Shown here: positions 7,281 to 30,367 of the stretch, piece by piece
Numbering within the stretch: the first letter of the stretch is position 1
Layout of the letters: each line of letters begins with the position of its first letter
Assembly: GCA_903928915.1 (NCBI GenBank)
Contig: CAIYSL010000098.1
Coordinates: 99,179 to 163,178 of the forward strand
Direction of reading: 5' to 3'
Length of the DNA: 64,000 bases
DNA from: an uncultured Syntrophobacterales bacterium
GTDB taxonomy: Bacteria > Desulfobacterota > Syntrophia > Syntrophales > UBA5619
Program-made: the position numbers and the translations under genes
Notes under the pieces: generated by a model
Told to the model about the DNA's origin: nothing
Seen by the model: only the letters and a program-made list of their open reading frames with translations
Database searches by the model: none

Positions 7281-7532
7281 TTCTATTGTGTCGTCATATG
7301 AGCCCACAGAACGCTCCTTTAAAAGCCCAATGCCCGCACAACTTGATCCATCAATCAGCACTTCCTTCGGGGCTGGTCACATTGTGGACCAATACTTTTT
7401 TAAAAATGGTCAGATCTCTTTCTCACTGCCTCAGTGCATACATGAGACAGGGGAAATATGCAATCCCGTATTCCGCTGCGCCTGGGAGTCGCTCAAGGTC
7501 TTCATGCAGGAGGCGGTGCCGGAAAAGGCACC

Positions 7533-7561
7533 TGAACCGCCCCGGGTTTTCCGGAGCCTCC
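7533..7561. repeat. IS3 terminal inverted repeat, left
   Basis: This 29-bp repeat begins TGAACCGCCCCGGG and pairs with 8813-8841 at 25 of 29 positions. It lies just beyond the orfB stop codon. Confidence 0.85.
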
Positions 7562-7562
7562 G

Positions 7563-8791
<1,229 letters not shown>

Positions 8792-13512: not shown

Positions 13513-13534
13513 CCGGGGGGGAAGTGGACGCAGC

Positions 13535-13716
13535 GGCTTGGTGGGCCCCAACGGCGCGGGCAAGACCAACATCTTTCGGCTCATCATGGGCGAGGTAATG
13601 AGGTAAGCTCCCTCGTGAACCGGGTCTTTGCCATCGACCACGGCCGGATGCAGGTCTTTGATGGCTCCTACGACTACTACCTGGAGAAGACCAGCCGGGA
13701 GCAACGGGCGGCGTGA
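13535..13716 (+). pseudogene. ABC-F ATPase remnant A (internally deleted)
   Basis: Frame 13391 onward reads GLVGPNGAGKTNIFRLIMGE, the Walker A region of the first ATPase domain of an ABC-F protein. About 20 bases later another frame gives NRVFAIDHGRMQVFDGSYDYY and then the extreme C-terminus LEKTSREQRAA with its stop at 13714-13716. Over 400 residues that normally separate these are missing. The 3' part is nearly identical to remnant B. Confidence 0.75.
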
Positions 13717-13773
13717 GGCCGCGGAGAGGCTGGGACAAAATATCAAATGTTCCCGGTAAGGCTAGATTTCCTG

Positions 13774-14070
13774 CTATGCGGCAACGAAGTCGATTTTGAC
13801 CTTCATCCCCGTGGCGGCAGCGACCTTTTCCAGGGTCTTGAGCGTAAAGCCTTCATACTCGCCGCTCTCGATCCTTGAAATGGCCTGTTGGCTGGTGCCC
13901 ATCAGCTTGGCCAATTGCTGCTGAGACAATCCTTTCTGCTCACGCAGGGCGGTGATCTTCATGGCCAGTTGCAGGGCCTGCCTTTCTTCGTCATAGTGCC
14001 TTTTGAACTCGGGATCCTTCAGGCCTTCCCGCAACCTGCTCTGGAACGTCCGAACACCTGCTCTTTTCAT
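13774..14070 (-). CDS. XRE-family antitoxin-like repressor (orphan)
   Basis: This 98-residue protein has a C-terminal Xre helix-turn-helix (KITALREQKGLSQQQLAKLM, then SQQAISRIESGEYEGFTLKTLEKVAAATGMKV). The N-terminal LREGLKDPEFKRHYDEERQAL is typical of antitoxins that accompany RelE/HigB-type toxins. The ATG at 14070 is chosen because AGGAGG lies seven bases before it; a GTG at 14115 sits right at the predicted transcription start. It probably binds its own promoter (14122-14150). No toxin gene is found on either side: ABC-F debris flanks it at 13716 and 14167. It is therefore an orphan antitoxin or a stand-alone regulator. Confidence 0.8.
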   Translation of the reverse strand: MKRAGVRTFQSRLREGLKDPEFKRHYDEERQALQLAMKITALREQKGLSQQQLAKLMGTSQQAISRIESGEYEGFTLKTLEKVAAATGMKVKIDFVAA

Positions 14071-14121
14071 CCTGTACCTCCTGCGGGAAACCTTTACAAA
14101 CCCACCTCCCGGCACGGCCGA

Positions 14122-14150
14122 ATGCTACATCATGTTTGATGTATTGTCAA
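14122..14150 (-). promoter_or_regulatory. Promoter and palindromic operator of the XRE gene
   Basis: Read on the - strand: TTGACA (14145-14150), a 17-base spacer and TAGCAT (14122-14127). A perfect inverted repeat TACATCA-n4-TGATGTA (14126-14143) fills the spacer and touches the -10, the classical arrangement for autorepression by the Xre protein encoded downstream. Confidence 0.75.
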
Positions 14151-14166
14151 GCATTCTCCCGGCCCT

Positions 14167-14378
14167 TGCCAAAGCCCACGCACCGCCAGTCCCAGGAGGT
14201 GCTGCTGGCGGCCCTGAAGAACTTCACGGACACCGTGGCCCTGGAGAGCCACGACCGCCACTTCCTGCGGTCGCTCGAGAACCGGGTCTTTGCCATCGAC
14301 CACGGCCAGATGCAGGTCTTTGATGGCTCCTACGACTACTACCTGGAGAAGACCAGCCGGGAGCAGCGGGCGGCGTGA
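14167..14378 (+). pseudogene. ABC-F ATPase remnant B (C-terminal ~70 codons)
   Basis: One open frame encodes the end of the second ATPase domain: SQEVLLAALKNFTDTVALES, then HDRHFLRSLENRVFAIDHGQ (the SHDR switch motif is included), then MQVFDGSYDYYLEKTSREQR before the stop at 14376-14378. The stretch before SQEVLL (PKPTH) looks like a decayed Walker B / DEPTNHLD. There is no start region, so this is a 5'-truncated copy. It lies between the XRE gene and the 3' end of the sigma-factor gene. Confidence 0.8.
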
Positions 14379-14426
14379 GGGTTTGAAAGGGGCGACTGAA
14401 GGAGGAAGACCTGGAGGAGACCACCC

Positions 14427-15005
14427 CTATTTCCGGTCGCAGGCCAGCGCGCCCTGTTCATCGTGGTACAGGACACAGGCCTCCTGCATCTTCTGCCGGA
14501 GTTTTCCCCTTGCCCTGTGGAGCCGGATCTTGACCGCCTCCAAGCTGACGCCGAGGATCTCGGCAATCTCGTTGTCCTGCAGCTCTTCCAGTTCACTCAG
14601 GATCAGGACGGAGCGATAGCCCTCCGGCAGGGCATCGACGAGCCCGCGGATGCAATCGTTCATCTCCTCACGGATGACCCGCTGTTCTCCCCCGATCGTC
14701 TCGGCGGGGATATATTCCAGTCCACTTTCCTCTGCGGAGAACGCGGATGGGAGACCCTTGCCCGGGTGGGCAGAGGACTGCCGGAGCCGGTCGATGGCTG
14801 CATGGGTGGCGATCCGGTAGACCCAGGTGCTCAATTTCGCCTCGCCGCGAAAATGCTCCAGGGCAAGACCGACCTTGACGAAGACGTCCTGAGTCAGATC
14901 TTCCGCCTCGGCCCGGCCCACCATCCGGGCCAGATAGCGGAAGATCTTCTCATGAAAGTCTTCGTAAATCTGCTGGAACTGCTGTCCGTCGCCGTTCATG
15001 TTCAT
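14427..15005 (-). CDS. ECF-family RNA polymerase sigma factor
   Basis: This 192-residue sigma factor has region 2 (FHEKIFRYLARMVG, AEDLTQDVFVKV, FRGEAKLSTWVYRIATHAAI) and region 4 (ALPEGYRSVLILSELEELQD, NEIAEILGVSLEAVKIRLHR). A cysteine/histidine-containing tail (CVLYHDEQGALACDRK) could sense redox state or metal. No anti-sigma factor is adjacent. Instead it is the last gene of a four-gene run with an AhpD-like protein, a small membrane protein and a DGC-domain protein, 24 bases from the AhpD gene. ECF/AhpD pairing is a known arrangement in anti-sigma-less ECF groups, so the AhpD-like partner may tie sigma activity to thiol redox state (inference). Confidence 0.92.
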   Translation of the reverse strand: MNMNGDGQQFQQIYEDFHEKIFRYLARMVGRAEAEDLTQDVFVKVGLALEHFRGEAKLSTWVYRIATHAAIDRLRQSSAHPGKGLPSAFSAEESGLEYIPAETIGGEQRVIREEMNDCIRGLVDALPEGYRSVLILSELEELQDNEIAEILGVSLEAVKIRLHRARGKLRQKMQEACVLYHDEQGALACDRK

Positions 15006-15029
15006 GCTCTCCCTGCCTATCCTACCATT

Positions 15030-15287
15030 TCAGCAGGAACAACCACAAGACGGCTTTGGCGCCTCGCACTGGGAGGCCGCCTCTTTATCCACCAGCTTCA
15101 GGGCCAGGGCATCCATGCTGGCGGCCGCTCCCTTGCGGACGGCCTTGGCCTGGTCCACCGCCTCCCTGATCTCGCTTCGTTCGATGCCCATCTCCAGGGC
15201 CTTGCCGACATGAAACGCCAGGCAGGGATGGCAGTTGGCGCCCACCGATGCCGCAACGGCGAGCAGTCTTTTCATTCGTTCGTCCAT
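15030..15287 (-). CDS. AhpD-like carboxymuconolactone decarboxylase family protein
   Basis: This 85-residue all-helical protein has the AhpD-type active site CHPC inside ASVGANCHPCLAFHVGKAL, followed by GIERSEIREAVDQAKAVRKG. AhpD proteins are thiol-disulphide peroxidase partners. A second cysteine cluster ends the protein (CEAPKPSCGCSC), suggesting a metal site or an additional redox centre. It is transcribed between the small membrane protein and the ECF sigma gene and is likely part of the same regulon. The true decarboxylase activity of the family name is unlikely for this short form. Confidence 0.88.
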   Translation of the reverse strand: MDERMKRLLAVAASVGANCHPCLAFHVGKALEMGIERSEIREAVDQAKAVRKGAAASMDALALKLVDKEAASQCEAPKPSCGCSC

Positions 15288-15303
15288 GGAAACCTCCTCC
15301 TGC

Positions 15304-15522
15304 TTATTTTGTAGACCCCAGACGCTGCTTCAGCGCCTGAACCTCTTTTCGCAATTCCTCGACCTCCTCGGCCCGGTCCCTTCTCCCGCAGCACCAGCTC
15401 CTGCCCGTCCTATGCCGTCCGGAGAGGCAGCCGGCGACGCAAAGGATCATGCAGATCAGGGGCAAGATCCACCAGTAACCCAATAATGATTGAGGGGTGA
15501 ACTCCCAGCCAAACATACCCAT
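15304..15522 (-). CDS. Small membrane protein with C-terminal coiled coil
   Basis: This 72-residue protein starts at an ATG preceded by AGGAGGT. It has one membrane segment (WWILPLICMILCVAGCLSG) containing two cysteines, a basic cytoplasmic segment with a CC pair (SWCCGRRDR), and a short coiled coil (EEVEELRKEVQALKQRL). It sits 10 bases after the DGC-domain gene and 16 bases before the AhpD gene, so the four genes form one operon. It is unknown, but similar small cysteine-containing membrane proteins accompany ECF/AhpD modules. It could anchor the sigma factor or a redox partner (inference). Confidence 0.65.
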   Translation of the reverse strand: MGMFGWEFTPQSLLGYWWILPLICMILCVAGCLSGRHRTGRSWCCGRRDRAEEVEELRKEVQALKQRLGSTK

Positions 15523-15532
15523 TTACCTCCTT

Positions 15533-16075
15533 TCATTTTTCTCGGCCGCAAAAACCTGCAGGCTGAGCCGAACCACAGCCCGACGATGCCGGCCCCTTCG
15601 CCCCCTTCCCGAGCGCCGAAATGACCGTGTCGGCCACCAGTCTTGCGACCCGGCGGCGTTCTGCTTCCGGCACCGCTTCGATGTCGAAAAGATCCGTGTA
15701 CTTCTTGTAGACCGCCAGGGCATCGAAGAGAACGAGCCGCTCTTCCGCAACGAGATGCTTCATCACCCTCCCGTGGCACTGGAGGAAGCATCCGTCGATG
15801 ACCACCACCTTTTCCGACGCCCTCATCCATTGGGCAATGGCAGAGCCGGGGACCGTGAACATCTCTCCGTGGCAGCCGCGGCGGTAGGGCTCTTCCTTGG
15901 ACACCAGGTTGGCGGCCAGGCGGGCGATCTCCCCGCGGATGCAGGCGCCTTCGCAGGAGATGACCGGGATCTTCCCCTCCCGCGCATTCTGGCTACCCCA
16001 TTTCTCCCCGACGGGGCAGGAGCCCACTGTCCCCTCGATCTTGATCGAAAAATCGCTCTTTGGTTTCATATCCAT
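15533..16075 (-). CDS. DGC-domain putative zinc-binding protein
   Basis: This 180-residue cysteine-rich protein fits the putative zinc-binding DGC family: VGSCPVGEKWG, VISCEGACIRGEIARLAANL, YRRGCHGEMFTVPG and the signature VVIDGCFLQCHGRVMKHL. The cysteines probably bind zinc or another thiophilic metal. It is the first gene of the operon with the membrane protein, AhpD-like protein and ECF sigma factor, which points to a metal or redox stress response. The biochemical role of the family is not established. The GC-rich C-terminal tail (SSGCGSAQPAGFCGREK) adds two more cysteines. Confidence 0.8.
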   Translation of the reverse strand: MDMKPKSDFSIKIEGTVGSCPVGEKWGSQNAREGKIPVISCEGACIRGEIARLAANLVSKEEPYRRGCHGEMFTVPGSAIAQWMRASEKVVVIDGCFLQCHGRVMKHLVAEERLVLFDALAVYKKYTDLFDIEAVPEAERRRVARLVADTVISALGKGAKGPASSGCGSAQPAGFCGREK

Positions 16076-16238
16076 TCCTGCCTTTCCTTTTTGCCCTATA
16101 GACGAAAGAGAAGGGGGAAAGGATACATCAGGCTTTGAGGTTCATTTCTGCGGTGGCGGGATTTTCAGACAAAGGGATTGGGGAGCTTGTGATGGATCGC
16201 CCTCTTGGGCAGGGGCATCGGAAGGCCGCGGAACGCGA

Positions 16239-18752
16239 TTATGCGGTTATCGTTGGTGCCAGCGCTTTGCGGATGGCAGCGGCCAGTTGACAGGTGCTGA
16301 CCGGCTTCTTGAGGAACACCATGATGGCGGACGAAGCCGTGGCGTCTTCTCTTGACCTGTCGACGTACCCGGACATGATGACGATGGGGATGTCGATTTT
16401 CGCCTGTTTCATATTTTTTGCCAGCTCCAGCCCGGTCATGTGCGGCATGGAATGATCCGTGATGACGAGGTCATACGCTTCCGGATTGTTTTGAAAAGTC
16501 GTGAGCGCTTCCCGGCTGTCCATGAACGCTGTCACTCGGTATCCGAGATTCGTGAGAATCGTCCGGAACGATTCGACAATGGCCTTCTCGTCATCAACGA
16601 GCAGAATCCTCTCCGTGCCGCCTGTCATCATTGACTGTTCCTGCCGGTCGACATCAGTGCTTTCCTGTTCCGTTGCCGGTATGATGATGCTGAAAGCAGT
16701 GCCTTTGCCCGGCTCACTGTGAACGCTTACGCTGCCGCCGAGTTTTTTCACGATGCCGTGGACCACCGAAAGCCCGAGGCCGGTTCCTTCTCCCTGCCCT
16801 TTGGTGGTGAAGAACGGTTCGAAAATATGCCCGAGCGCTTCCGGCGGTATGCCGCAACCGGTGTCGGATATCCGCAGCAGGATGTGTTTCCCGGTTTTGA
16901 TGTCGGGATGCGTGTTCGTGAATTCTTCGTCGGCCAGGAGGTCCTCGAAGTCTATGGTGATGCAACCGGGATTCATACCGATCGCGTGGACGGAGTTCGC
17001 GCACAGGTTCACGATCATCTGATGGATCTGCGACGGGTCGGCCATGATGGCCGCGTTGCTCGCGATATTCGTCCGGATGTCGATCACTGCGGGCGTCGAC
17101 GCTCTGAGCAGTTTGACCGCTTCCTTGATGATCAGCGCCGGGAGCACCCGGCTTGACTCGGCTGTTGTCTGCCTGCTGAACGTGAGAATCTGCCGGGTGA
17201 GATCGCGCGCTCTCATTGTCGCGGTGCGTATTTCGCGGAGATACTGTTTCGTCTTCTTCGGATTATCGGGAATCATCAGCGACAGTTCCGCGTAGCCGAG
17301 CACGCCCGCGAGGATATTGTTGAAGTCGTGCGCGATTCCGCCCGCCAGCGTGCCTATCGCCTCCATTTTCTCCGCCTGCTGCATGCGTTTTTCCAAGCTG
17401 ACCTTTTCGGTTATGTCGGTGCCTACTGCCAGGAAGCTGTGGACGCCGCCTTTCTCGTTCTTCAAGGGTATTATTATCGTGGAATGCGTTGTTTCCTCAT
17501 TCTTCGAAAGGCCGTGCCGGAGAATGCCCGTCCATGTTCTTCCCGCCATGAGGGCTTCTTTTATATCTTCCTCCACGGCGGCTCTTGATGGAGAAGCGGG
17601 AAGGACGGTCCCGATCAATTCGTTTTCGTTTTTTCCGAGGAATTTTTGAGCAGTCGGATTGGCGAATATGATTTTTCCGCCGAGGTCGGTGCAGATGATC
17701 GTCTCTGTTGAATGCGCGGTCACCTGTTTCATCATCTCTATCGTTTTTTCCACCGGGGTGCTTATTGTATGGGAAAAAGCCGACATTGCCGCACTTGCGA
17801 TTATGAGGAACAGCAATGCGACAAGAGAGACGAACAGAAGGGTTTTGCGCATGGGCATTAATATTTCGTCCATGTTTTGGGTGAAAATCACGGTCCATCC
17901 CGTGTTCGGAACGCGCGCGAATCCCGCCATGTTCACCCTGTCTCCGACATGGTATTTGCCGTAGCCGGTTTTCTGGTTTTTTATCTCTCCCCCAATATCC
18001 TGCATCCCGGGCTCATCATCCTCGATGGTCCTTTTGAGCAGGTATTCTTTTTTCGGATGAGATATGAACGTTCCTTGTCCGTCGATCAAGCTCGCGAATC
18101 CGGTTTCCCCTGTCTTTACTCTGGATATGTTATTGTTAATGAAATCCATGCCCAGCGTTAAGACGGCGATTCCGAGGAACTCCTTGCCGTTGTATATCGG
18201 AGCGCTCACGATGATGATCTGTTGTCCGGTAAGCGGTGATACGACGGGTCCTAGTATGCTGGTTTTCCCCTCTTTGGCTTTGATGAAATAATCCCGGTTC
18301 GAAAAATTCATGGTTTTAGGGATGGCCTGTTGATCGAGTACAGACGGGTCTTTTGTCAGGATATCTGTTTTTACGATGCCGTTCCTGTCCGCCAGAAAGA
18401 ATCTTCTGTAGAATGGTTTTTCCCGGCTGAGCATCGGTCTTAAATGAGCGTCGGCTGCCGTGTAATTTTTTTCGGACAGGGCGTTGACCACGGCAGGATC
18501 GGCCGCTATGAGGGCGGCAAGGTGAACTTGACTGTTGAGAGACGTTTCTATGACTGCAGACAGGCCGTTTGCTATTTGAATTGATTTTTCTGCGGCTTGT
18601 TTTTCGAGGGAGGAAGAGAGGTTGCTGTAGATGATAATGCCGGCGATCACAAACGGAATGAATAATGCCGCTGTTCCGGCAAGCATGATCTTTGCGTGGA
18701 GCGGCAGGTCGGCAACTCTTTGCTTCATTCTGTTCTTAACAGCAGGAAACAT
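16239..18752 (-). CDS. Membrane hybrid histidine kinase (dCACHE-PAS-HisKA-HATPase-REC)
   Basis: This is an 837-residue sensor kinase. TM1 (about 24-46) and TM2 (about 308-332) enclose a ~260-residue periplasmic double-CACHE ligand domain (FYRRFFLADRNGIVKTDI, GKTSILGPVVSPLTGQQ). A PAS domain follows (~345-450), then HisKA with phospho-accepting His ~474 (GGIAHDFNNILAG). The HATPase has its N box at NLCANSVHA, DTGCGIP and GEGTGLGLSVVHG, and the protein ends in a receiver domain with the phosphate-accepting Asp ~766 (LVITDHSMPHM). No response regulator or output gene lies next to it, so its target is elsewhere. CACHE domains often bind amino or organic acids. It is AT-richer than the operon to its left. 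Confidence 0.93.
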   Translation of the reverse strand: MFPAVKNRMKQRVADLPLHAKIMLAGTAALFIPFVIAGIIIYSNLSSSLEKQAAEKSIQIANGLSAVIETSLNSQVHLAALIAADPAVVNALSEKNYTAADAHLRPMLSREKPFYRRFFLADRNGIVKTDILTKDPSVLDQQAIPKTMNFSNRDYFIKAKEGKTSILGPVVSPLTGQQIIIVSAPIYNGKEFLGIAVLTLGMDFINNNISRVKTGETGFASLIDGQGTFISHPKKEYLLKRTIEDDEPGMQDIGGEIKNQKTGYGKYHVGDRVNMAGFARVPNTGWTVIFTQNMDEILMPMRKTLLFVSLVALLFLIIASAAMSAFSHTISTPVEKTIEMMKQVTAHSTETIICTDLGGKIIFANPTAQKFLGKNENELIGTVLPASPSRAAVEEDIKEALMAGRTWTGILRHGLSKNEETTHSTIIIPLKNEKGGVHSFLAVGTDITEKVSLEKRMQQAEKMEAIGTLAGGIAHDFNNILAGVLGYAELSLMIPDNPKKTKQYLREIRTATMRARDLTRQILTFSRQTTAESSRVLPALIIKEAVKLLRASTPAVIDIRTNIASNAAIMADPSQIHQMIVNLCANSVHAIGMNPGCITIDFEDLLADEEFTNTHPDIKTGKHILLRISDTGCGIPPEALGHIFEPFFTTKGQGEGTGLGLSVVHGIVKKLGGSVSVHSEPGKGTAFSIIIPATEQESTDVDRQEQSMMTGGTERILLVDDEKAIVESFRTILTNLGYRVTAFMDSREALTTFQNNPEAYDLVITDHSMPHMTGLELAKNMKQAKIDIPIVIMSGYVDRSREDATASSAIMVFLKKPVSTCQLAAAIRKALAPTITA

Positions 18753-18785
18753 GACCAGCCTCCAACCGTTTCTCTCTGCCTGATT

Positions 18786-18815
18786 ATATTGTCATTCCTT
18801 CTCCATAAATGTCAA
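18786..18815 (-). promoter_or_regulatory. Candidate promoter of the histidine kinase
   Basis: On the - strand, TTGACA (18810-18815), an 18-base spacer and CAATAT (18786-18791), about 35 bases upstream of the start codon. A TATAAT is also present three bases farther on, but the spacing would be too long. Confidence 0.45.
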
Positions 18816-18872
18816 GAAGGCTACTTGCTCTTTGTGGTGTGATGGTCAGGACTTCGCCTAACGGTCTTAGGC

Positions 18873-19320
18873 TCATTGCATTTTACCTCTTAGCACCTTA
18901 TACGGTGTTTTGCCATTAAGTGATCCATGGGGCGGTATAAATCATAAAAGCTTTCCCATTGCTCAAGCTTATTGAGGAGATCGACATCGTCTCTGTAAAA
19001 CAGCAATTGATAAGACTCACGCTCATCAGTGCCGTGTGACCGTTCGACTTTGCCATTTAGGCGTGGACTTCGGGGTTTGATATAAACATGTCTAATGCCC
19101 AGGTCTTCGACATGCCAATGAAATTTGGCTTGAAACTCGTGGCCGTTGTCTGTTCGCACTGTTTGAATTCGAAAGGGAAATTTCGAGATCACATGATCCA
19201 TAAAGCCGATGGCGTTGACCTGAATCACCCCCAAAGCAAGATCCAAAGGGAGGATCTGTTCTCTTACCGGGGTCTGCCCATTTCCAATTCCGCGATGATC
19301 CTGCTGCTGATTGGCCTGCA
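18873..19320 (-). pseudogene. IS481-type transposase remnant
   Basis: The C-terminal half of an IS481-like DDE transposase is recognisable: HVISKFPFRIQTVRTDNGHE, then YIKPRSPRLNGKVERSHGTDE and WESFYDLYRP. Its 5' half is missing. Near 18930 one C appears lost from a C-run: the frame in use ends in MDHLMAKHRIRC, whereas the shifted frame gives the family-typical ending HGSLNGKTPYKVLRGKMQ with a stop at 18873-18875. No inverted repeats were found. It abuts ABC-F remnant C. Confidence 0.8.
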
Positions 19321-19375
19321 GATCTTCGCTTACAATTATTCAATGCGACGATTGATGAAATAAGTTCATGTCCTA

Positions 19376-19446
19376 AAATGCAGGTCTACGAGGGCTCCTA
19401 CGCATACTACCTGGAGAAGACCAGCCGGGAGCAACGGGCGGCGTGA
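19376..19446 (+). pseudogene. ABC-F ATPase remnant C (last ~22 codons)
   Basis: The frame reads MQVYEGSYAYYLEKTSREQR then AA and a stop at 19444-19446. It has the same terminus as remnants A and B but lacks everything upstream. Ten bases after the stop begins the HigBA promoter. Confidence 0.7.
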
Positions 19447-19456
19447 GGAAAAGGGC

Positions 19457-19485
19457 TTGACAAGCGTCACGTGACAAGTTAATAT
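19457..19485 (+). promoter_or_regulatory. HigBA promoter with central palindrome
   Basis: TTGACA (19457-19462), exactly 17 bases, TAATAT (19480-19485). The spacer contains the perfect palindrome GTCACGTGAC (19466-19475) and two direct TGACAAG repeats (19458-19464, 19472-19478), good operator candidates for the HigA antitoxin. The expected transcription start coincides with the GTG of the toxin gene. Confidence 0.8.
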
Positions 19486-19491
19486 ACTGTC

Positions 19492-19773
19492 GTGATTAAA
19501 TCTTTTTCCGATAAGCACACGCAAACGCTCTTCATGACAGGCCAATCGAAACGGCTTGCACCGGACCTGCTGCGCAGGGCGATCAGGCGTCTGGAATATA
19601 TCGACTTGGCCTCCTGTCTGGATGATCTGAAGGCGCCGCCGAGCAATCGTCTGCACGCCTTGAAGGGAGACAGGGCAGGCCAATTCGCCATTTCCATCAA
19701 CGATCAATGGCGCATCTGCTTTCGCTTCCAGGACGGCGATGCCTACGATGTGGAGATCACGGATTATCATTAA
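19492..19773 (+). CDS. higB: HigB-type (RelE superfamily) mRNA-interferase toxin
   Basis: This 93-residue protein matches the RelE/HigB toxin fold: IKSFSDKHTQTLFMTGQSKR, then LRRAIRRLEYIDLASCLDDL, LHALKGDRAGQFAISINDQW, RICFRFQDGDAYDVEITDYH. HigB toxins cut mRNA on the ribosome; the C-terminal R-I-C-F-R and the final D-Y-H carry the usual catalytic and rRNA contacts. It starts with GTG, with no Shine-Dalgarno and at the predicted transcription start, so leaderless translation is likely. Toxin precedes antitoxin, as usual for higBA, with 10 bases between the genes. It is flanked on both sides by ABC-F fragments, which suggests arrival or survival as a unit. Confidence 0.93.
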   Translation: MIKSFSDKHTQTLFMTGQSKRLAPDLLRRAIRRLEYIDLASCLDDLKAPPSNRLHALKGDRAGQFAISINDQWRICFRFQDGDAYDVEITDYH

Positions 19774-19783
19774 GGAGAAGACC

Positions 19784-20098
19784 ATGGCGATCGAAAACAA
19801 AGGACCGCGGACCATCAGCCCCACCCACCCGGGAGAGATGCTCCGGGAGGATTTTCTGACCGACTATGGACTGACCACGGCCGGGCTGGCAGAGGCGTTG
19901 GGTGTGTCGCGGCAGACGATCAACGAGATCCTTCGGGAAAAGCGGGCCGTCAGCCCCGTGATGGCCCTGCGGCTGGCCCAACTCTTCGGCAACGCGCCGG
20001 AGTTCTGGCTGAACGCCCAGCGGGCCTATGACCTCTGGCAGGCTAAAAGGGACAATCAGACCGACATCGAAAAGATCAAGCCCCTGCGCGCCGCGTGA
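19784..20098 (+). CDS. higA: HigA-type antitoxin (XRE)
   Basis: This 104-residue HigA antitoxin has the family N-terminus (ISPTHPGEMLREDFLTDYGL) and an Xre helix-turn-helix (TTAGLAEALGVSRQTINEIL). The FGNAPEFWLNAQRAYDLWQA segment that follows typifies the HigA/VapI group. The ATG at 19784 is chosen because GGAG lies just before it and it follows the toxin stop by 10 bases; a longer frame from 19739 is an overlap artefact. It neutralises HigB and should repress the promoter at 19457-19485. Confidence 0.95.
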   Translation: MAIENKGPRTISPTHPGEMLREDFLTDYGLTTAGLAEALGVSRQTINEILREKRAVSPVMALRLAQLFGNAPEFWLNAQRAYDLWQAKRDNQTDIEKIKPLRAA

Positions 20099-20112
20099 TC
20101 GCGGAGCGTCCC

Positions 20113-20196
20113 CTGCCGTCACCACCTACAGCGGCAACTACGACTTCTATTTTCAGGAGCGGGAAATCCGGCGGGAGCAGCTCCTTGCCCACCCTG
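20113..20196 (+). pseudogene. ABC-F ATPase remnant D (end of first ATPase domain)
   Basis: The frame reads AVTTYSGNYDFYFQEREIRR then EQLLA, which matches the end of the first ATPase domain and start of the linker in ABC-F proteins. It begins right after higA and breaks off where the beta-helix gene ends (20197). The linker and final codons that would follow reappear 5.4 kb away as remnant E. Confidence 0.6.
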
Positions 20197-22449: not shown

Positions 22450-22476
22450 GATTCCCCCTCAACAAGCTCAGCCCTG

Positions 22477-25476
22477 CTATTTTGGACAGAATGTGATGGT
22501 GTAGTTTACGTTGGTTGCATCACCCTTCCCGGTGCAGGTAAACGTCCCCGACTTGTCGTCATAGGGATAGGTGTACGATGCGGGTGAAGCGGCATGGAAA
22601 AGCTTGTAATACGGCAGGGCCGTGCCGACCCAGGCCGAATTTGATGAAATCCCCTTGACCGTGCCGAAGTCATTCATCCAGTCCGGGTAGCCGCAGCAGT
22701 TCGAACCGACCCCTGCCGTGTAGCAGGAGTTTGCGTATATTGGGCCGGTACACTGAAACAGCGGGAGATTCGTGCCGCACGAAAGAGCAGCCGGCGGATT
22801 TTGCTGGCTGCACGCTTTAAGCGGCGAAAGGCAGCCGACATAAGTCCCTGAGGCATTCCTCAGCTGCAGTTCCGCCGGGCAGGTAGCCGCAGGAAGAACC
22901 AGGTTGCTTCCGCCCCATGTTGAAGGATCGGTCAGCCCTCTCCCGTAGGAGCTGCAGTCCGAGACACACCCCGGGCTACCGCAATAAAACTTGTTCACAC
23001 ACGTATTGATAGAGGTATCGCAAACCCAGTTGTAATCAAGGGTATTCCAGCAATCGGTATTGCTGCTGCAGCTGGTGCTGGACAGCTCGTCTGCAGTCCC
23101 CCTTCCATAGGTACCGGTAACCGGTGCAATCTGAACCGGCACGTTTGCCCCATCAACCAGACTGATGTCATAAAAGTCAGTACCCTTTGAGGGCAGGAAC
23201 ATGTTCAGTTCTGCCAGGGTCGGCGAATCTTCGCCGCTGTTGCGGCAGTTGGCGGATGGTTGCGGACTCAGCTGCTCATCAAAACACTTGCCGGTATCGC
23301 AGGTAAATGTTGCCGGGGTGCACAGATTCTGCCCCTGACCACTGCACTGATAGGCGGAACACTGCCGGTACCCGCAGACACCGATCGTCACATCCTGACC
23401 GGCAATACTTGTCTTCATCGGAACACAGGTGTAATTACTGCCTGCACCCTTGACCGCATCACAGCTTGCATCATCCCCTAGGGTGCACTCGTTGGCAGTG
23501 AACTGCTGGCCGGCATCAAAAATGGGAGTATCGGACTGATTGCATTTACCCCCCACGATGGCTGCATTTCCGGAGTACGGGCCGCAGTTACTGTCTGATC
23601 TGCAGTGAACCGGATATGACAGAGGACTGACAAGCGGCTGCACCAGTGCCCGACTTCCCGGATTCACCGATTTCGCATCGCACTGGGCATCGGTTCCGGC
23701 AAAGAGCGGGTCACAGGCTGAACCCACACTGACGCAGCCGGTCCTGGGCCAGAAGCGCCCTGCCCAGGGTGTGGGGACAAAGAGCGGTGTGGTGCCGCCG
23801 GCCCCGAGCTTCCAGCTGTTCCCCCGGTTGGCGGGAGGCTGGGAGGCACAGACACCCTGCGGGGCGGTTGTGGTAAAACAGAACTGGTTGCTTGCGCAGT
23901 CGCTGTTAGTCGAGCATGAAACCGCAGGGGCAACGATCTGGCTCCTTTCCACCGGAATCGGGACATAGATGCAGTTCTTCCAGCCGCACTGCCCGGTGGC
24001 TGTATTGCAGAACTGGTTGCTGCTGCAATCGGCATCGCTGGTGCAGCCGCTGCCCACTTTGTCATTGTAAGAAGGGGTGCCGCCGCAATAGGTGTTTGGC
24101 TCCCGGCAGTCTCCATTCTGCTTGCAGGGGTAGGTTGTGCAAAGATTATAGCAGTTGCTGTCTTTCATGCAATCGCTCGTGAGCGGCGGACAGGTGCCGC
24201 CGTTACAATCGGCGGAAGATCTGCACTTGACAGCCATCGTGTTGCCGGAGGCGGCAGCCCAGACCTCGCTGCTGCAGTTGTTGAACAGGTTGATCACTCT
24301 GCCGGGCATACCGGTCGGCCCGGTTGTGCCGATGAGCGTCGCATGGACCATATTGGCATCAGTAATGGTCGCACCGGTCAGATCGGTTTCTTCAAGGTTC
24401 GCACTGCCCAGATCGGTATTGCTGAGGTTGGACGTCCTGAGGTTGCTTCCACTGAGGTTGGCCCTGTTCAGGTTCTTGTTGCTCAGATCAACCCCTTCCA
24501 GATTGCAATTTGCACAGCTGCCGGTTGCAATCAGTTTCTGCAGGTCCTCTTCCGAATAGGTCGCAGAGCCTCCGTCCACAAACAGCGAGGGGGCGGTAAC
24601 CTCCAAGCCGCCCATGGCCACTGGTGCTGTTCCAAAAAGGATTCTGGCAGTAAAGATAATGCGATTGGTGGATGTATCGTACGATGGAGACTTGGTGAGC
24701 GCGACGATCTGCGCTCCTCCGGCCTGCCCGTCGCGGGTATCGTAGGCGATGGAGATATTGGGCTGAGCGGAAGCAAAGCGCGTCTGCCAGGTCTGGAGGT
24801 AATCATTCAGAGGGATGACGGTTGACTTCCGACCCGGGGCATTGGTGTAACTGAAGACGCTGCCGTACGGTTGCTGCAGGGTGATGGTAACGGTGCCATC
24901 GCCGACAGGGGCGGAAAAGCTGCAGCGGCTGGCCGCCATCAGCTGCGACCACTCTTCAGCACCAGGTTGGGCATTATTCAGAATGATGATTTTTATATCG
25001 CTGACCTGCAGGTTGCTGATCGGCTTCTGATTGCCGTTCAGGTAGGTAACGGTAAAGCCGAGCTGTCCGGTCGTGCTGTTGTACGACGGTTTTTCCAGCA
25101 TACAGAAGATATCCAGAAACCCTTTGTCAGGCAGCGTGGCACGCACCAGCGCATTCGGGGCAACGGAGCCGTACACCCGAGGCCAGATGGAGTTGACCAG
25201 ATTGTTGACAGTATCGTACCCGGCCTCCTCGGCGGGTCGGTCGGTGAAGTACAGTACCGTTCCCGGTACATCGGTCAAGGTCAAGACAAGCTTGTTGCCG
25301 GTGGTGTCGCCGGAGATGGCAACAAAGCTCCCCGTGCTGGCGATCATCTCATAGATGCGCAGCGCTTCGTTGCGTGTACCGCTGCTGTCACGGCTGCATC
25401 CTGCCGGCAGCCCGACTGCCAGAAAGATCAACAACACGAGAACTGCACGCACTGAAACGTTGGCTGGAACTGGCAC
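22477..25476 (-). CDS. Lipoprotein with pentapeptide repeats and thaumatin-like domain
   Basis: This 999-residue protein starts at GTG 25476, preceded by AAGGAG; an upstream ATG adds 18 residues before the signal. The lipobox LPAGC gives a lipid-anchored Cys. An N-terminal beta-rich region (~30-310) precedes about a dozen pentapeptide repeats (~320-380: NLEGVDLSNKNLNRANLSGS). From ~392 to the end a thaumatin-family domain is recognisable: VINLFNNCSSEVWAAASGN, SWKLGAGGTTPLFVPTPWAG, the hallmark DFYDISLVDGANVPVQIAP, CPAELQLR, NCCGYPDWMNDFGTVKG, and the ending SYTYPYDDKSGTFTCTGKG with TITFCPK. It is about three times the usual ~200 residues because cysteine-rich DADCSSNQFC / SNTDCWNTLDYNWVC-type segments are inserted. 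Thaumatin-like proteins are best known from plants as beta-glucan-binding defence proteins; the bacterial role is unknown. Confidence 0.85.
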   Translation of the reverse strand: MPVPANVSVRAVLVLLIFLAVGLPAGCSRDSSGTRNEALRIYEMIASTGSFVAISGDTTGNKLVLTLTDVPGTVLYFTDRPAEEAGYDTVNNLVNSIWPRVYGSVAPNALVRATLPDKGFLDIFCMLEKPSYNSTTGQLGFTVTYLNGNQKPISNLQVSDIKIIILNNAQPGAEEWSQLMAASRCSFSAPVGDGTVTITLQQPYGSVFSYTNAPGRKSTVIPLNDYLQTWQTRFASAQPNISIAYDTRDGQAGGAQIVALTKSPSYDTSTNRIIFTARILFGTAPVAMGGLEVTAPSLFVDGGSATYSEEDLQKLIATGSCANCNLEGVDLSNKNLNRANLSGSNLRTSNLSNTDLGSANLEETDLTGATITDANMVHATLIGTTGPTGMPGRVINLFNNCSSEVWAAASGNTMAVKCRSSADCNGGTCPPLTSDCMKDSNCYNLCTTYPCKQNGDCREPNTYCGGTPSYNDKVGSGCTSDADCSSNQFCNTATGQCGWKNCIYVPIPVERSQIVAPAVSCSTNSDCASNQFCFTTTAPQGVCASQPPANRGNSWKLGAGGTTPLFVPTPWAGRFWPRTGCVSVGSACDPLFAGTDAQCDAKSVNPGSRALVQPLVSPLSYPVHCRSDSNCGPYSGNAAIVGGKCNQSDTPIFDAGQQFTANECTLGDDASCDAVKGAGSNYTCVPMKTSIAGQDVTIGVCGYRQCSAYQCSGQGQNLCTPATFTCDTGKCFDEQLSPQPSANCRNSGEDSPTLAELNMFLPSKGTDFYDISLVDGANVPVQIAPVTGTYGRGTADELSSTSCSSNTDCWNTLDYNWVCDTSINTCVNKFYCGSPGCVSDCSSYGRGLTDPSTWGGSNLVLPAATCPAELQLRNASGTYVGCLSPLKACSQQNPPAALSCGTNLPLFQCTGPIYANSCYTAGVGSNCCGYPDWMNDFGTVKGISSNSAWVGTALPYYKLFHAASPASYTYPYDDKSGTFTCTGKGDATNVNYTITFCPK

Positions 25477-25575
25477 GGCTTTCTCCTTGTCACGTTCTGT
25501 GAACTGCGAGAACAAAACACACCCACGCATACATTGTCATACTTGACTGATAAGACGTTGCTTTCTTATGGGGTG

Positions 25576-25605
25576 AATATAGGTGGCCGGTTTCTTGTAT
25601 GTCAA
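25576..25605 (-). promoter_or_regulatory. Promoter of the thaumatin/beta-helix operon
   Basis: On the - strand, TTGACA (25600-25605), 18 bases, TATATT (25576-25581), about 100 bases upstream of the GTG start. The rest of 25477-25853 holds only ABC-F remnant E. Confidence 0.6.
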
Positions 25606-25639
25606 GAGAATTCCCACCCAGCATATCGGAGGCGGTGGA

Positions 25640-25818
25640 AAGCTATTTTCGAGACAAGGGAGCGTGGCTTCGAGGGTGATATCGGGATTGGACCGAAGAT
25701 CACGCCGGAGCAGCGGACGATCAAGTTCGAGTTTGCCGAGCCGCCCCGGAGCGGCGACGACGTGGTGAATAGATTGGACATCCCGGAGAAGACCAGCCGG
25801 GAACAACAGGCGGCGTGA
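25640..25818 (+). pseudogene. ABC-F ATPase remnant E (linker joined to C-terminus)
   Basis: The frame reads ITPEQRTIKFEFAEPPRSGD, typical of the inter-domain linker just before the second ATPase domain of ABC-F proteins. Within about ten codons it passes directly into EKTSREQQAA and a stop at 25816-25818. The whole second ATPase domain is deleted. The last 36 bases match remnants A-C with a few substitutions. Confidence 0.7.
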
Positions 25819-25889
25819 GGGCCTGGCAAGACTGACGCAGGCCTTCGCGGTGATTGCCATGCCGCTCGGATAAGCGTATAGACGATTCC

Positions 25890-26192
25890 ATGGCGGATGA
25901 ACTCGATCCTGTTGAAATTCCCATAGACGGCGTGCTTGATCTCCATACCTTTCAACCGCGGGAGGTGGGAGAACTGGTCGTGGATTACCTGGAACTGTGC
26001 CGGGAGAGAGGTATTAGTGAGATACGGATCATCCACGGCAAAGGGACGGGACAGCTGCGACGCACGGTGCACGCCATCCTCGGCAGAAACCCGATGGTCC
26101 AGTCGTTTCACTTGGCCGGGGAAGGCGGCGGCTGGGGCGCCACGATCGTACAGCTCAGAACAGGAGAGAAGAAATCGGATTCACATTCTTAA
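25890..26192 (+). CDS. Smr-domain protein (MutS2 C-terminal type)
   Basis: This 100-residue stand-alone Smr domain has the motif LDLHTF near the start and IIHGKGTGQLRRTVHAIL in the middle, then FHLAGEGGGWGATIVQL. Smr domains are nucleases acting on branched DNA or on RNA of stalled ribosomes; the D-L-H and H-G-K-G-T residues are the conserved core. The ATG at 25890 is preferred over an in-frame 25854 start because the family begins here. It follows ABC-F remnant E and stands alone on the + strand. Confidence 0.92.
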   Translation: MADELDPVEIPIDGVLDLHTFQPREVGELVVDYLELCRERGISEIRIIHGKGTGQLRRTVHAILGRNPMVQSFHLAGEGGGWGATIVQLRTGEKKSDSHS

Positions 26193-26425
26193 ACGTTGCG
26201 GGGAGGGCTGACCTTATCACACCGTTTCACTATACTCTCGCCAAATTGCCTCACAGACAATTGCGGCATTCACCATGGAAACGCCCAGAATCACGCTCGG
26301 TAGGCTGGAAATGCAGCCTCTCTCTTGTGCCCGGATGAGGCAGAAGGAAAGGCTGAGCGGCCTGAAGCTGCAGTGGGAATAAGGATAGGCTTCCCCCGGG
26401 TCTACGTCGAACCCGGTGCAGTTTT

Positions 26426-27316
26426 CTATCTCAGGAGCTTGCCACGCAACTGCGCCTGTGTGGCGGCGTCCAGACCGAGGCCGTAGGTGATGTAGCCGGC
26501 CATCGACCCGTAGCTTGCCGCTGCCTGGTCAAACCCGGCAGCGAGGTAGCGCTGATCCGCCACCATCGTGGGCAGGTAGGCATCTGCGTGGTCCTTGCCG
26601 TACGCCGCCACCAGGGCCTGATAGGACGCCTGAATCGAAGCCGCAGAATAGGTATTGGTGAGCAGGTAGTCCTGGACGATCACGCTCTGCGGGACATCCA
26701 GCAAACTGAGCAGGACCGCGGTCACCCAGCCTGTACGGTCCTTGCCGGCGCTGCAGTGGTACACCTGAGAGCCGCCGGTCGTTGCAAGCGCGCGGAAGAG
26801 TTGTGCCAAGCGGTCGCGCATCCCCGGATCCGTAACAAGCGCCCTGCTGGTACTCTCCATCATGGCGAAGGCCTCGGCCGCCGAGTTCGGGGCCGGTATT
26901 TTGTCGATGTATTCTCCCAGGATATCGATGTTGAGGTAGTTCGCGCCCGCGGGGGGGATGTCGGGCTTTTTCGCGATCTCCCCCGGGCTGCGAAGGTCGT
27001 AGACGGCCAGGATGCCCAGGGTATTCAGGGTTGCCAGATCGGATGCCGAAGGCGCCAGGGCGTTCGAACGGTAGACGACCCCGCGGCGCAGTTGCCGACC
27101 GCTCGCGGTGCGATACGCCTCCTGGTCGTCGGTTCCTGCGATGTCGCGGAAATTGTCGACCGATTCCAGCCGCGGGGTGGGCGCTACCGCGAGGTCGCTG
27201 CCACCTCCGCAACCCGCAAGCCAAAGACTGAAGAGCAGCGGCACCAGGAGGCCCAACGGCAAGACGTTCACGACCTTCCCCGCTCGGCGCATATTGGAAT
27301 GAGATATCGCTTTCAT
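26426..27316 (-). CDS. Secreted tyrosine-specific protein phosphatase (lipoprotein)
   Basis: This 296-residue protein has a lipoprotein signal (LLFSLWLAGC) and a Y_phosphatase3-type domain: DNFRDIAGTDDQEAYRT, GVVYRSNALAPSASDLATL, VYDLRSPGEI. The active-site P-loop is HCSAGKDRTGW (Cys nucleophile and Arg both present, ~195). The family resembles bacterial LipA/MptpB-type phosphatases acting on phospho-Tyr or phosphoinositides. AGGAGAAAG precedes the ATG. It lies on the same strand as, and ~100 bases downstream of, the metallophosphoesterase gene, so both may act on phosphate esters outside the cytoplasm. Confidence 0.9.
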   Translation of the reverse strand: MKAISHSNMRRAGKVVNVLPLGLLVPLLFSLWLAGCGGGSDLAVAPTPRLESVDNFRDIAGTDDQEAYRTASGRQLRRGVVYRSNALAPSASDLATLNTLGILAVYDLRSPGEIAKKPDIPPAGANYLNIDILGEYIDKIPAPNSAAEAFAMMESTSRALVTDPGMRDRLAQLFRALATTGGSQVYHCSAGKDRTGWVTAVLLSLLDVPQSVIVQDYLLTNTYSAASIQASYQALVAAYGKDHADAYLPTMVADQRYLAAGFDQAAASYGSMAGYITYGLGLDAATQAQLRGKLLR

Positions 27317-27416
27317 GGTTCCGTTCTTTCTCCTGTCCTGAGATATAACCGAAGCACTACCCTGGCAGAGGGCCGATCGGGCGCATTGTCGGGATTGGAG
27401 ATGCCCGCATCGTCGC

Positions 27417-29177
27417 CTACCCTATTGCCGACCCGCAGTTGGCGATCTTCGCCTGCATCTCCGGCGTCAGTTGCTTCACGAGCTCGGCATTGTAGGCCAT
27501 GGACCCGGTATCCAGCCGGATCGCGTCGGTGGCGCCGAAGATCCGCGCGGCGCCGACGGCATACCCCCGCGACTTCGCCGCAGGCGTCTGCGGGGCCACC
27601 GCGGGGTCGACATTGGTGATGAGAATCGAAACGGTGTTGTCGCTGTTGCGGCGGATGTCGAAGGTCCTGAACTGCTGGGGGAAATCCCTCAGCGATGCGG
27701 TCTCGACCTCCCAGAAGCCGTACTCCGGCCCCTTCCCCGCGGGCGCCGGCTGCGGGGTCACGACATTCACGTGCCGATGTCCCGCGATCCAGAGGATGAG
27801 GTTCGGGTAGTTGTGGAGGACGGGCAGCAGCGCGGCCTCCGTAAACCCGGGGGAACGGAAGAAAGAGAAACTCGTCGTGTCGGTCAGGCTGTTCTGGGGG
27901 TTGATCGGGATGTGGGCCGCGATGATCATCAGCTTGCCCTCGTCCTGGCCTTTCTGGAGTTCGGCCGTGAGCCAGTCGAGCCGGGCCTGGTCGAGACCGC
28001 CCAGGGCATACATCGGCTGGTTGGGTCCCTTGACGGCATCGTCGAGGGCGATGACCTTGATCGGCACACCCGCCTTCGGCTCGAAGCTGTACGAGGCGAA
28101 GGCGTTGTCGAGGCTGGCCTGGGTGAAGCCGTGGCCGACCGGTTTCGACGTGGTGGTGAAGAACTCGCGCATGAAGCCCTGGGTAGCAGAACCGGGGGAT
28201 GCGAGGGAACGGCGGTCGGGGTCGGCCGCGACCGTCGGCGGCGTGGGAAACCGCCCTTCCGGCCCGGCCTTGATGATGTCCCCGTAGGGCGTCGTGCCGT
28301 CGACCACCCCCATGTAGCAGCCGGTTCCCTGGAGGGCCGCAGCGGACGGGATCGGGGAGTTCTCGAAGTTGATCACCGCAGAACTGATGCGGGCCGACAA
28401 TGTTTTTTCGTTTTCCCAGAACGAGCCCAGGAAGTACTGATCGTGGTTGCCGATCACCTGATACCAGGGGATCGTCCGGTCGAGCCCGGCTGCCTGGAAC
28501 GGCCGCTGATAGTCGATGGCGTCGGCCCCGTCATGGGCGCCGGAGCTGGGGGTGACGAGCCTGCCGTCAAGAACGTCGATGTACCATCTCAGTTCATTGT
28601 ACTGCGCGTTGTTGGTGGCGTCCCCCAGGGAAATGCCGAAATCGAACGGCGCCCTCTTGTGCAGGACGTTGATCGTCCTAATGGTGGCGTCGAGGACCTG
28701 GGTCGAGGCGAGAATGACCGGTGAATAGGCCGACGACATCCCGGCAGAGGCCGGGCCGTACTGTGCGCTCCAGCCGACGTAATTCGCCTGGGCCGGGGAC
28801 TCCTTGTCGCAGATGTGGATGTCGCTCAGGGAAAAGAAGCTCAAGAGACGCGCCGCATTCGGGGAGCCGGCATAGCCGGGCGCAAGCTCGGTGCGCTTCA
28901 CGTACCCCAGCCCGGGGCCGGCCTGCCAGGCGCTGTACCCGTATTGCGCGTACAAGGGCACATCCGCCGGATTGATCTTTGGGGTGGATGGGGGCAGTCC
29001 CACGGGCATGATCTGCTGCTGGGCCGTCGTGAAGACCTGATCGGCGATCGGCCATTCCAGCGTGCCGCCGCCGTTGCCGCCGCATCCGTAACCGAACGAA
29101 CCCAATGAAATCCATGCCGCGGCTCCGGCGGACAATTTCATGAATTCCCGCCGAGTAAGACCGGTGCGCGATTTCAT
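27417..29177 (-). CDS. Tat-exported metallophosphoesterase (TIGR03768-like)
   Basis: This 586-residue protein has a twin-arginine signal (LTRREFMKLSAGAAAWISLG). The ATG at 29177 gives the proper signal; the frame upstream to 29312 is unlike coding sequence. Calcineurin-like metal motifs are spread over the protein: SLSDIHICD, GISLGDATNN, VIGNHDQYF, IIAAHIPINP and WIAGHRHVNV. These provide the D-x-H, G-D, G-N-H-D and G-H-x-H ligands of a two-metal phosphatase. Tat export suggests the metals are loaded in the cytoplasm. Its substrate is unknown. It is probably co-transcribed with the secreted tyrosine phosphatase. Confidence 0.88.
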   Translation of the reverse strand: MKSRTGLTRREFMKLSAGAAAWISLGSFGYGCGGNGGGTLEWPIADQVFTTAQQQIMPVGLPPSTPKINPADVPLYAQYGYSAWQAGPGLGYVKRTELAPGYAGSPNAARLLSFFSLSDIHICDKESPAQANYVGWSAQYGPASAGMSSAYSPVILASTQVLDATIRTINVLHKRAPFDFGISLGDATNNAQYNELRWYIDVLDGRLVTPSSGAHDGADAIDYQRPFQAAGLDRTIPWYQVIGNHDQYFLGSFWENEKTLSARISSAVINFENSPIPSAAALQGTGCYMGVVDGTTPYGDIIKAGPEGRFPTPPTVAADPDRRSLASPGSATQGFMREFFTTTSKPVGHGFTQASLDNAFASYSFEPKAGVPIKVIALDDAVKGPNQPMYALGGLDQARLDWLTAELQKGQDEGKLMIIAAHIPINPQNSLTDTTSFSFFRSPGFTEAALLPVLHNYPNLILWIAGHRHVNVVTPQPAPAGKGPEYGFWEVETASLRDFPQQFRTFDIRRNSDNTVSILITNVDPAVAPQTPAAKSRGYAVGAARIFGATDAIRLDTGSMAYNAELVKQLTPEMQAKIANCGSAIG

Positions 29178-29399
29178 GAAACCCTCGCCGGGTTCCGCAG
29201 TGGTGTTGCTCTTTCGCTTTCGATCCCCTGATCCCTTCATGTGCCGTATTCTCTTCTTTCCTCCGTATCCTCGAAAAGGGCAGCGCCGAGTCCTGAACTC
29301 GCACTGCCCCATTCAACTACTACAGCATCGGCATCGGCGCGGGAAAGCTTTAATGGACTGATTGGGGAATTCGACCTACCACCGAAGAGGGCGCCCTTC

Positions 29400-29532
29400 C
29401 AATGACGAGCCGCGACCGAGCGCTCATGAACCGCGTGGCCCTCCCGGCTCGTCGAGGTGGCCAACCGCACCATCACCGCCTACAGCGGCGACTACGACTT
29501 CTGCCTGAAGGAGCGGGAGATCCGGCGTCTCG
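29400..29532 (+). pseudogene. ABC-F ATPase remnant F (end of first ATPase domain)
   Basis: SRDRALMNRVAL resembles the SHDR-x-FLNRV motif of the first ABC-F ATPase domain. After a frame change, VANRTITAYSGDYDFCLKER and EIRRL follow, closely like remnant D. The similarity to D ends abruptly after GAGATCCGGCG at about 29527. The fragment ends just before the SUI1-type gene. Confidence 0.6.
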
Positions 29533-29553: not shown

Positions 29554-29922
29554 CTAGCCGCCGGCCAATTTCACGGTATATCCCAAGGCGCCAAGCTCCT
29601 GCCGCAGCACGTCACGATGATCGCCCTGGATCTCGATCCGGCCCGCCTTGACCGTGCCCCCGGTTCCGCACCGCTGCTTGAGCCTCCTTGCCAGGGCTTT
29701 GAACCCCTCGTCGTCCAGGGGCAGGCCCGAGATGATCGTCACGCCCGCGCCCTTCCGCCCTTTCGTCTCCCGGCTGATGCGGACGATGCCGTCCCGGGGA
29801 GGGCCGGGCGTCGCCTTACGGCAGACGCACTCCTTGGCGGAGTGACCGCATTCCGGGCACATCTTTCCCAGTTCCGTTGAATAGACGAGGCCTTCCTGCC
29901 TGTTGATCGCTATCTTCATCAT
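29554..29922 (-). CDS. SUI1/YciH-type translation factor
   Basis: This 122-residue homologue of eukaryotic eIF1 (bacterial YciH) has an N-terminal zinc-knuckle-like segment (CPECGHSAKECVC) and the SUI1 core (VRISRETKGRKGAGVTIISG, then LARRLKQRCGTGGTVKAGRI, IEIQGDHRDVLRQEL). YciH is thought to influence start-codon selection. Two tandem ATG codons open the gene. It is monocistronic and unrelated to its neighbours. Between it and the desulfoferrodoxin gene (29923-30367) I see no gene or clear signal. Confidence 0.93.
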   Translation of the reverse strand: MMKIAINRQEGLVYSTELGKMCPECGHSAKECVCRKATPGPPRDGIVRISRETKGRKGAGVTIISGLPLDDEGFKALARRLKQRCGTGGTVKAGRIEIQGDHRDVLRQELGALGYTVKLAGG

Positions 29923-30367
29923 TCCCAGCCATGCGTTTCTTCCATATCGTCACAGACCGCGTCCAACGTCAAGCGCTTATCCACGGCGACCTCTTCCCCA
30001 GGGCCTGGGTGGCCAGGAATGCCCCGTGGCGATGGCGCGGCCCCGGTGTCTCCCCCGGGACTCGCCTCCCGGAGAGAGAGATTCCGGGAAGTTGATCGAG
30101 GGCTTGTCAGGGAGGGGGCGGACATCTGTGAAGACGCCTTGCCGGGTCCATTCCCCTTGCCATTCCCGATGGGAGTGACTAATAATGAACTGTCCAGCGT
30201 TTCCCGATCGGCCCTTTTCCCGCATCTTTTTCAACAGGCGGCGGCAGGACGGATCCGTCATGCCCTGGGCATGGCCGGGGAAGTGCGTTACAGGTTGAGG
30301 CAAGGCGGCAGGGAGATCGACATGCCGATGGAGGAAACCGAACCATTCACCGGAGGAGGAGTTCATC

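Follow-up and report, generated by a model that had tools for sequence, protein, structure and literature searches.

ABC-F gene fragments between toxin-antitoxin and other modules of a Syntrophales genome: probable scars of repeated insertion at a gene 3' end

Results

ABC-F fragments and intervening genes

The window, i.e., the whole stretch of 64,000 nucleotides that was analysed, belongs to a draft genome of 141 contigs. Six fragment sites (A to F) were matched in tblastn and blastn searches of the window with the intact ABC-F protein of the same genome (544 aa, contig C105, positions 6610-8241). All six were intergenic and on the + strand, in agreement with the first-pass annotation of this DNA, which had described six ABC-F gene pieces in one orientation between genes. 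The fragments, identified by tblastn/blastn and numbered by residues of the C105 protein, and the genes around them, identified by Pfam matches unless otherwise noted, are as follows.

13529-13718, + strand: fragment A, aa 29-50 (Walker A, 13529-13595) fused by internal deletion to aa 511-544 and stop codon (13607-13716), then GG
13748-14152, - strand: module 1, a toxin-antitoxin (TA) remnant with a HigA-like HTH antitoxin (13774-14115, Pfam HTH_3) and promoter motif (14126-14152), toxin gene missing
14166-14380, + strand: fragment B, aa 472-544 and stop codon (to 14378), then GG
14381-19375, no single strand: module 2 region, between B and C
14427-15005, - strand: ECF sigma factor, module 2
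15030-15287, - strand: CMD-family protein, module 2
15533-16075, - strand: DGC-domain protein, module 2
16239-18752, - strand: hybrid histidine kinase, module 2
18890-19246, - strand: transposase (rve) fragment, module 2
19375-19448, + strand: fragment C, aa 522-544 and stop codon (to 19446), then GG
19449-20118, + strand: module 3, HigBA pair with HigB toxin (19492-19773) and HigA antitoxin (19739-20098) (PF05015, TIGR02607)
About 20116-20189, + strand: fragment D, aa 237-260, end of first ATPase domain/linker
20197-22449, - strand: GH141/beta-helix-like lipoprotein gene, cargo between D and E
22477-25530, - strand: pentapeptide/thaumatin-domain protein gene, cargo between D and E
25696-25820, + strand: fragment E, linker aa 303-326 (25696-25767), deletion, last codons and stop codon (25782-25820), then GG
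25854-26192, + strand: Smr-domain gene (PF01713), directly behind fragment E
26426-27316, - strand: tyrosine phosphatase-like gene, cargo between E and F (Pfam/NCBIfam)
27417-29312, - strand: metallophosphoesterase gene (TIGR03768), cargo between E and F (Pfam/NCBIfam)
29387-29528, + strand: fragment F, aa 209-263 with a frameshift
29554-29922, - strand: SUI1-domain gene (PF01253), adjoining fragment F

Nucleotide identity between the fragments and the intact paralogue was 74-90%. Identity of the 3' ends among themselves was higher (92-96%), i.e., 96% over 110 bp between A and B and, compared with A, 93% over 71 bp for C and 92% over 39 bp for E, and fragments D and F were 84% identical at the DNA level. 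A common 3' boundary was noted for A, B, C and E, in which identity extended over the stop codon plus the next two bases (TGAGG) before giving way to sharp divergence, with a different follower behind each fragment. These 3'-end copies were of unequal length (about 39 to 213 bp); the other pieces, i.e., D, F and parts of A and E, were internal to the gene. No functional ABC-F gene, with both ATPase domains complete in a single open reading frame, was present among these fragments. The earlier statement that the window lacks an intact copy thus held for the window itself, with the qualification that an intact paralogue sits on another contig, C105. An intact relative (L043:7673-9307) scored 410.5 bits against the ABC-F ribosome protection-like family NF000355 (cut-off 380).

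Selection is relaxed on the ABC-F lineage of the window (fragment B and genome G019), as dN/dS was about 0.5 for B compared with G019, against about 0.05-0.15 in most pairwise comparisons of intact genes. In G019, a 51-bp remnant of the same antitoxin gene as in the window lay immediately behind a decayed ABC-F 3' end (L046:1-222). The adjacency of ABC-F gene and antitoxin was therefore either in place before the two genera separated or acquired by transfer. Genome G030, which is without an intact gene of the subfamily, carries a solitary, decayed ABC-F 3' end on the reverse strand (L045, about 10100-10498), likewise shortened by an internal deletion.

Both TA modules (1 and 3) occupied nearly every base between their flanking fragments. 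The tandem HigB-like toxin and HigA-family antitoxin of module 3 (19492-20098) scored 59.5 bits vs. 27 for PF05015 and 108.7 bits vs. 47.7 for TIGR02607. Homologous HigBA modules started at the equivalent of 19449 in G011, ended at that of 20118 in G006 and spanned 19456-20098 in G001, the first two of these limits (19449 and 20118) being the exact edges of the gap between C and D. For module 1, homology with G001 extended over 13748-14098 (89%). The toxin gene beside the antitoxin (13774-14115) was absent from the window and the promoter motif was kept. In four relatives (G012, G010, G008 and G009), an open reading frame of some 120 codons, likened by eye to a RelE/Gp49 toxin, lay between the corresponding antitoxin and the 26-27-bp motif, and nothing but this toxin-like piece was missing in the window. 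Gene-end copies bracketing homologues of the TA modules of the window were not found in G001, G006 or G008-G012. Repeats near the TA homologues on contigs C187 and C74 of G001 were palindrome-containing intergenic repeats, and dispersed intergenic repeats of 130-230 bp, strongly palindromic at the centre (GTTAAGTCACTTC...GAAGTGACTT and GCCGCGGC types) were noted in the same genome at L237:226-5373 and L238:12056-14132.

Module 2 and the cargo around D, E and F were not addiction genes, and the cargo between D and E encoded two large secreted proteins. There was no integrase gene among the annotated genes of region 9211-31823, and module 2 contained the transposase fragment listed above. Further downstream, an intergenic segment ahead of a desulfoferrodoxin gene (29994-30359) was 74-78% identical to one that precedes a different gene in G019 (L046:2920-3237) and is possibly a mobile or regulatory non-coding element.

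Repeat content of the contig and genome

When 243 kb of the 250-kb contig was compared with itself by BLAST, the six fragments were the only direct repeats less than 25 kb apart at E<1e-6, with the one exception of ABC1/ABC2 domain similarity inside one other ABC-F gene. A search of the whole 4.34-Mb genome returned no further ABC-F debris outside the window, the sole other match being the intact paralogue. Thus, the observation of six fragments was confirmed well beyond chance, because neither the contig self-comparison nor the genome search showed like repeats. Both circumstances that the first-pass annotation had named as fatal to its finding were ruled out, i.e., an origin of the fragments from unrelated families, since one ABC-F protein aligned to all of them, and an equal density of such debris elsewhere, since the comparison run on the contig and the genome-wide count that had been proposed placed it in the window only.

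Inverted repeats of at least 30 nt were not found in the fragment region. A tRNA gene as target was ruled out, the window containing none, and so was an RNA element at the fragments, the sole Rfam match in the window being the ALIL pseudoknot (RF01497) of an IS3 element at 8397-8513. This pseudoknot, the usual frameshift element of IS3-type transposons, adjoins a 302-aa open reading frame (7563-8513).

ABC-F loci of related genomes

The ABC-F subfamily is sporadic in the order (about 16 of 155 genomes). In G033, an intact ABC-F gene was followed by a convergent TA pair (TIGR02683/TIGR02684) and then by a second, 87-bp copy of the ABC-F 3' end (95% identity), the insert between the two copies consisting of the two TA genes alone, without transposase or integrase. 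The junction of GCGGCCTGA with AAAACTGATATTTCAAGACCTGAC lay directly behind the single ABC-F gene of the congener G063, and the same junction lay behind the far copy in G033; the G063 locus is the empty site of the G033 insertion. At diagnostic sites, the far copy of G033 had the letters of G063 and the near copy did not, for which reason the TA module of G033 seems to have brought its own copy of the gene end. The motif that marks the empty site is a dispersed repeat in that genus, and truncation at the ABC-F stop codon was common only to the G033 and G063 loci. With up to two mismatches, the dispersed repeat around TTAACTGGGGGCTGAAAACTKATATTTCAAGACCTGACC occurred at seven sites in three genomes (G033, G063 and G059).

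The interval behind the ABC-F stop codon held a different addiction module in each of these three congeners, i.e., a TA module in G033 and restriction-modification (R-M) modules in G063 and G059; no bracketing repeat or duplicated end was found for the R-M modules of the latter two. Elsewhere in G059 (L098, about 10499-11444), the 5' end of engB was duplicated (74 bp, 89%) around a BrnT/BrnA-like pair identified by eye.

A second parallel was noted in G052, a genome without an intact gene of the ABC-F subfamily, in which a HigBA pair lay between two ABC-F 3' ends that were 97% identical over 60 bp. Here too the insert consisted of two TA genes alone, with no transposase or integrase. The outer ABC-F copy was followed by TGATTGAGCAATGG, which closely resembles TGATGGAGCAATGG, the native flank in G059, and looks like a native ABC-F flank. 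The inner copy adjoined a further TA pair, made up of a ParE-like toxin and a ParD-like antitoxin.

Survey of TA and ABC-F loci

Sixty TA loci of the order, i.e., the 30 top-scoring matches to TIGR02684 and the 30 to TIGR02607, were chosen regardless of ABC-F genes and scored as bracketed if they lay between direct repeats with a minimum length of 50 bp and a minimum identity of 78%. Long direct repeats bracketed 9 of these 60 best-scoring loci compared with 10 of 600 random windows taken from that order (Fisher p = 1e-5). Of the nine, G066 and G067 probably represent one ancestral event; the control windows were drawn from about 25 loci without matching of intergenic content, and most of the genomes appear to be draft assemblies. 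Two of the 10 control matches themselves bracketed TA modules, namely the ABC-F case of G033 and the engB 5' end of G059. Lengths of the flanking direct repeats were 60 bp in G052, 87 bp in G033, at least 110 bp in the window (A and B) and 287 bp in G114.

Gene ends duplicated around TA modules were the 3' ends of the ABC-F gene, of a WYL regulator gene (287 bp) and of a 102-aa zinc-ribbon-like gene, and the 5' ends of an archease gene and a PLD-like gene; the archease case narrowly fails the formal identity or spacing thresholds and is outside the nine. About half of the repeats that bracketed TA genes elsewhere were dispersed intergenic repeats as opposed to gene ends. At L258 of G057, three copies of the archease 5' end separated a VapBC-like pair and a second TA pair, an array like that of the window made with another gene.

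A duplicated 3' end was found only in G033 among the first set of relatives of the order with the ABC-F subfamily, in none of 24 further members of the subfamily in relatives, and in none of 80 other ABC-F loci with 566 kb of downstream sequence covered, 4 of the 80 belonging to the same subfamily and the rest to others. The earlier proposal, in which modules of this lineage land preferentially in the ABC-F gene or at its 3' end, was thus borne out in part, with support for the 3' end. It agreed with the 3' ends in the window, G033 and G052 and with the different addiction modules behind the ABC-F stop codon of the three congeners, but D, F and half of E, which are not 3' ends, did not fit simple 3'-end insertion, and, G033 apart, the surveyed loci lacked the duplication. 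Nor is the preference exclusive, because TA modules of the order were also bracketed by ends of the other genes named above (WYL regulator, zinc-ribbon-like, archease, PLD-like and engB).

Discussion

Small modules, including TA modules, have probably (we estimate a probability of about 0.6) been inserted repeatedly at the 3' end of a single ABC-F gene, with duplication of that end, and the fragments in the window would be the scars. In favour of this reading are the common boundary ahead of four different followers, the tight fit of the TA modules in their gaps, the clean G033 insertion with its empty site in G063, the bracketed HigBA pair of G052, the excess of long repeats around TA genes and the relaxed selection on the ABC-F lineage. 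An incoming module that has a gene end at its flank, or is otherwise linked to one, would recombine into the same gene end of a new genome, the incoming DNA bringing its own copy of the end and integrating through it. Each insertion would leave the gene whole on the near side and displace the old end to the far side of the module, and repetition would give arrays of gene, module, end, module and end, such as A-antitoxin-B and C-HigBA. Most simply, the route would be a homologous single crossover of a circle or fragment, with no transposase; an integrase now lost and template switching are other candidates. Redundant ABC-F gene bodies would later decay by deletion. TA modules would resist deletion, because their loss kills the cell, so that short adjoining ABC-F pieces would be left as spacers, the debris being preserved by addiction. 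At least some of the array would have arisen by longer duplications or in a different way, because D and F are internal and adjoin modules without a 3' end, and larger duplications of the gene may account for the internal pieces D, E and F. No relative was found in which module 2 or the cargo of D, E and F was inserted alone, or in which the locus of the window was preserved as before insertion. The unequal lengths of the 3'-end copies, the non-addiction genes in the array, the share of dispersed repeats among those around TA genes and the dispersed nature of the G063 motif also speak against this reading.

It is unlikely that the array arose instead by tandem duplication of the ABC-F gene and ordinary decay, with unrelated genes entering dying copies. 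Such a history, for which at least four 3'-end copies and two middle copies are needed, draws on the internal deletions in A and E, which are typical of decay, and on D and E, which could be one gene copy split by insertion of the two cargo genes. Tandem copies would have common downstream sequence, yet identity ends exactly at TGAGG in all four 3' ends, and the G033 and G052 loci and the general enrichment of repeats around TA genes would go unexplained. As a general cause, tandem duplication is also argued against by the clean single-module case of G033 with its empty site.

Integrase-driven, site-specific integration at the ABC-F 3' end is likewise improbable. The modules would then be small integrative elements, past or present, with an attachment site that mimics the gene end, as at tRNA genes, and the use of the same gene in three genomes and an identity that ends exactly at the 3' end of a restored gene do recall classical attL/attR pairs. 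Against this, no integrase was found in the modules of the window or in that of G033, modules of 0.5-0.9 kb hold TA genes only, and repeats elsewhere in the order (60 to 287 bp) lie at 5' ends and at unrelated genes. As for a fixed crossover core, the repeats differed in length and start point, with few diagnostic sites for the placing of crossovers. Least credible is chance survival of debris, with no module insertion, in a repeat-rich and fast-changing part of an incomplete genome, for although the assembly is such a draft and transposase remnants lie nearby, no other repeats like the fragments occur in 243 kb of contig, the junctions of the fragments with TA modules are tight to the base and parallel cases occur in other genomes.

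If repeated insertion of modules at gene ends is extended from the window to the order, TA modules might spread as mobile units that lack a recombinase, each equipped with a duplicate of a host gene end as homology arm. They would enter on either side of that gene, which stays unbroken, and could accumulate one after another at a favoured target, e.g., the 3' end of the ABC-F gene. This wider proposal we consider tentative and somewhat doubtful. It addresses the open question of how chromosomal TA modules move without a plasmid, phage, integron or transposon, and gene-end duplication around a TA module, together with an empty site in a sister species, offers a concrete and searchable signature of such moves. 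Insertion of this kind would also account for gene debris that persists as spacers between modules.

Integrative elements insert in the 3' ends of tRNA genes and some protein genes via tyrosine recombinases. As with such elements, a gene end is duplicated here and the gene restored; in contrast with them, the modules have no integrase, repeat length varies and 5' ends are also used. Integron cassette arrays with TA cassettes similarly combine small modules, TA genes included, with repeats as separators, whereas the separators here are pieces of a protein-coding gene, no integrase was seen and modules lie in both orientations. Unlike the ABC-F ribosome protection-like proteins (NF000355), the ABC-F sequences of the window are fragments only.

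Insertion with long target duplication was reportedly described for R-M genes by Nobusato et al. in 2000 and Furuta et al. in 2010 (summaries in PMC3874152 and PMC3031569). The present case resembles that process in that addiction-type units are inserted, no transposase is visible and the flanking direct repeats are long copies of target sequence, variable in length and of the order of 100 bp. Comparisons of closely related genomes have revealed such extended duplications, roughly 100 bp long and of variable size, at R-M genes (PMC3874152, PMC3031569, PMC1643837). An empty site with a single copy of the repeat is likewise seen when G063 is compared with G033, and not for the window. The cargo at the duplicated ends differs, being TA as opposed to R-M genes, the target is repeatedly a gene end (the ABC-F 3' end in three genomes) and the insertions are stacked in series. 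No report of such insertion for TA modules or ABC-F genes was found in the literature searched, the two primary papers on the phenomenon lying outside that search. Thus, a style of insertion known for restriction systems, and hardly described for TA genes, seems to extend here to TA modules, which links these modules to the mode of insertion proposed for R-M genes.
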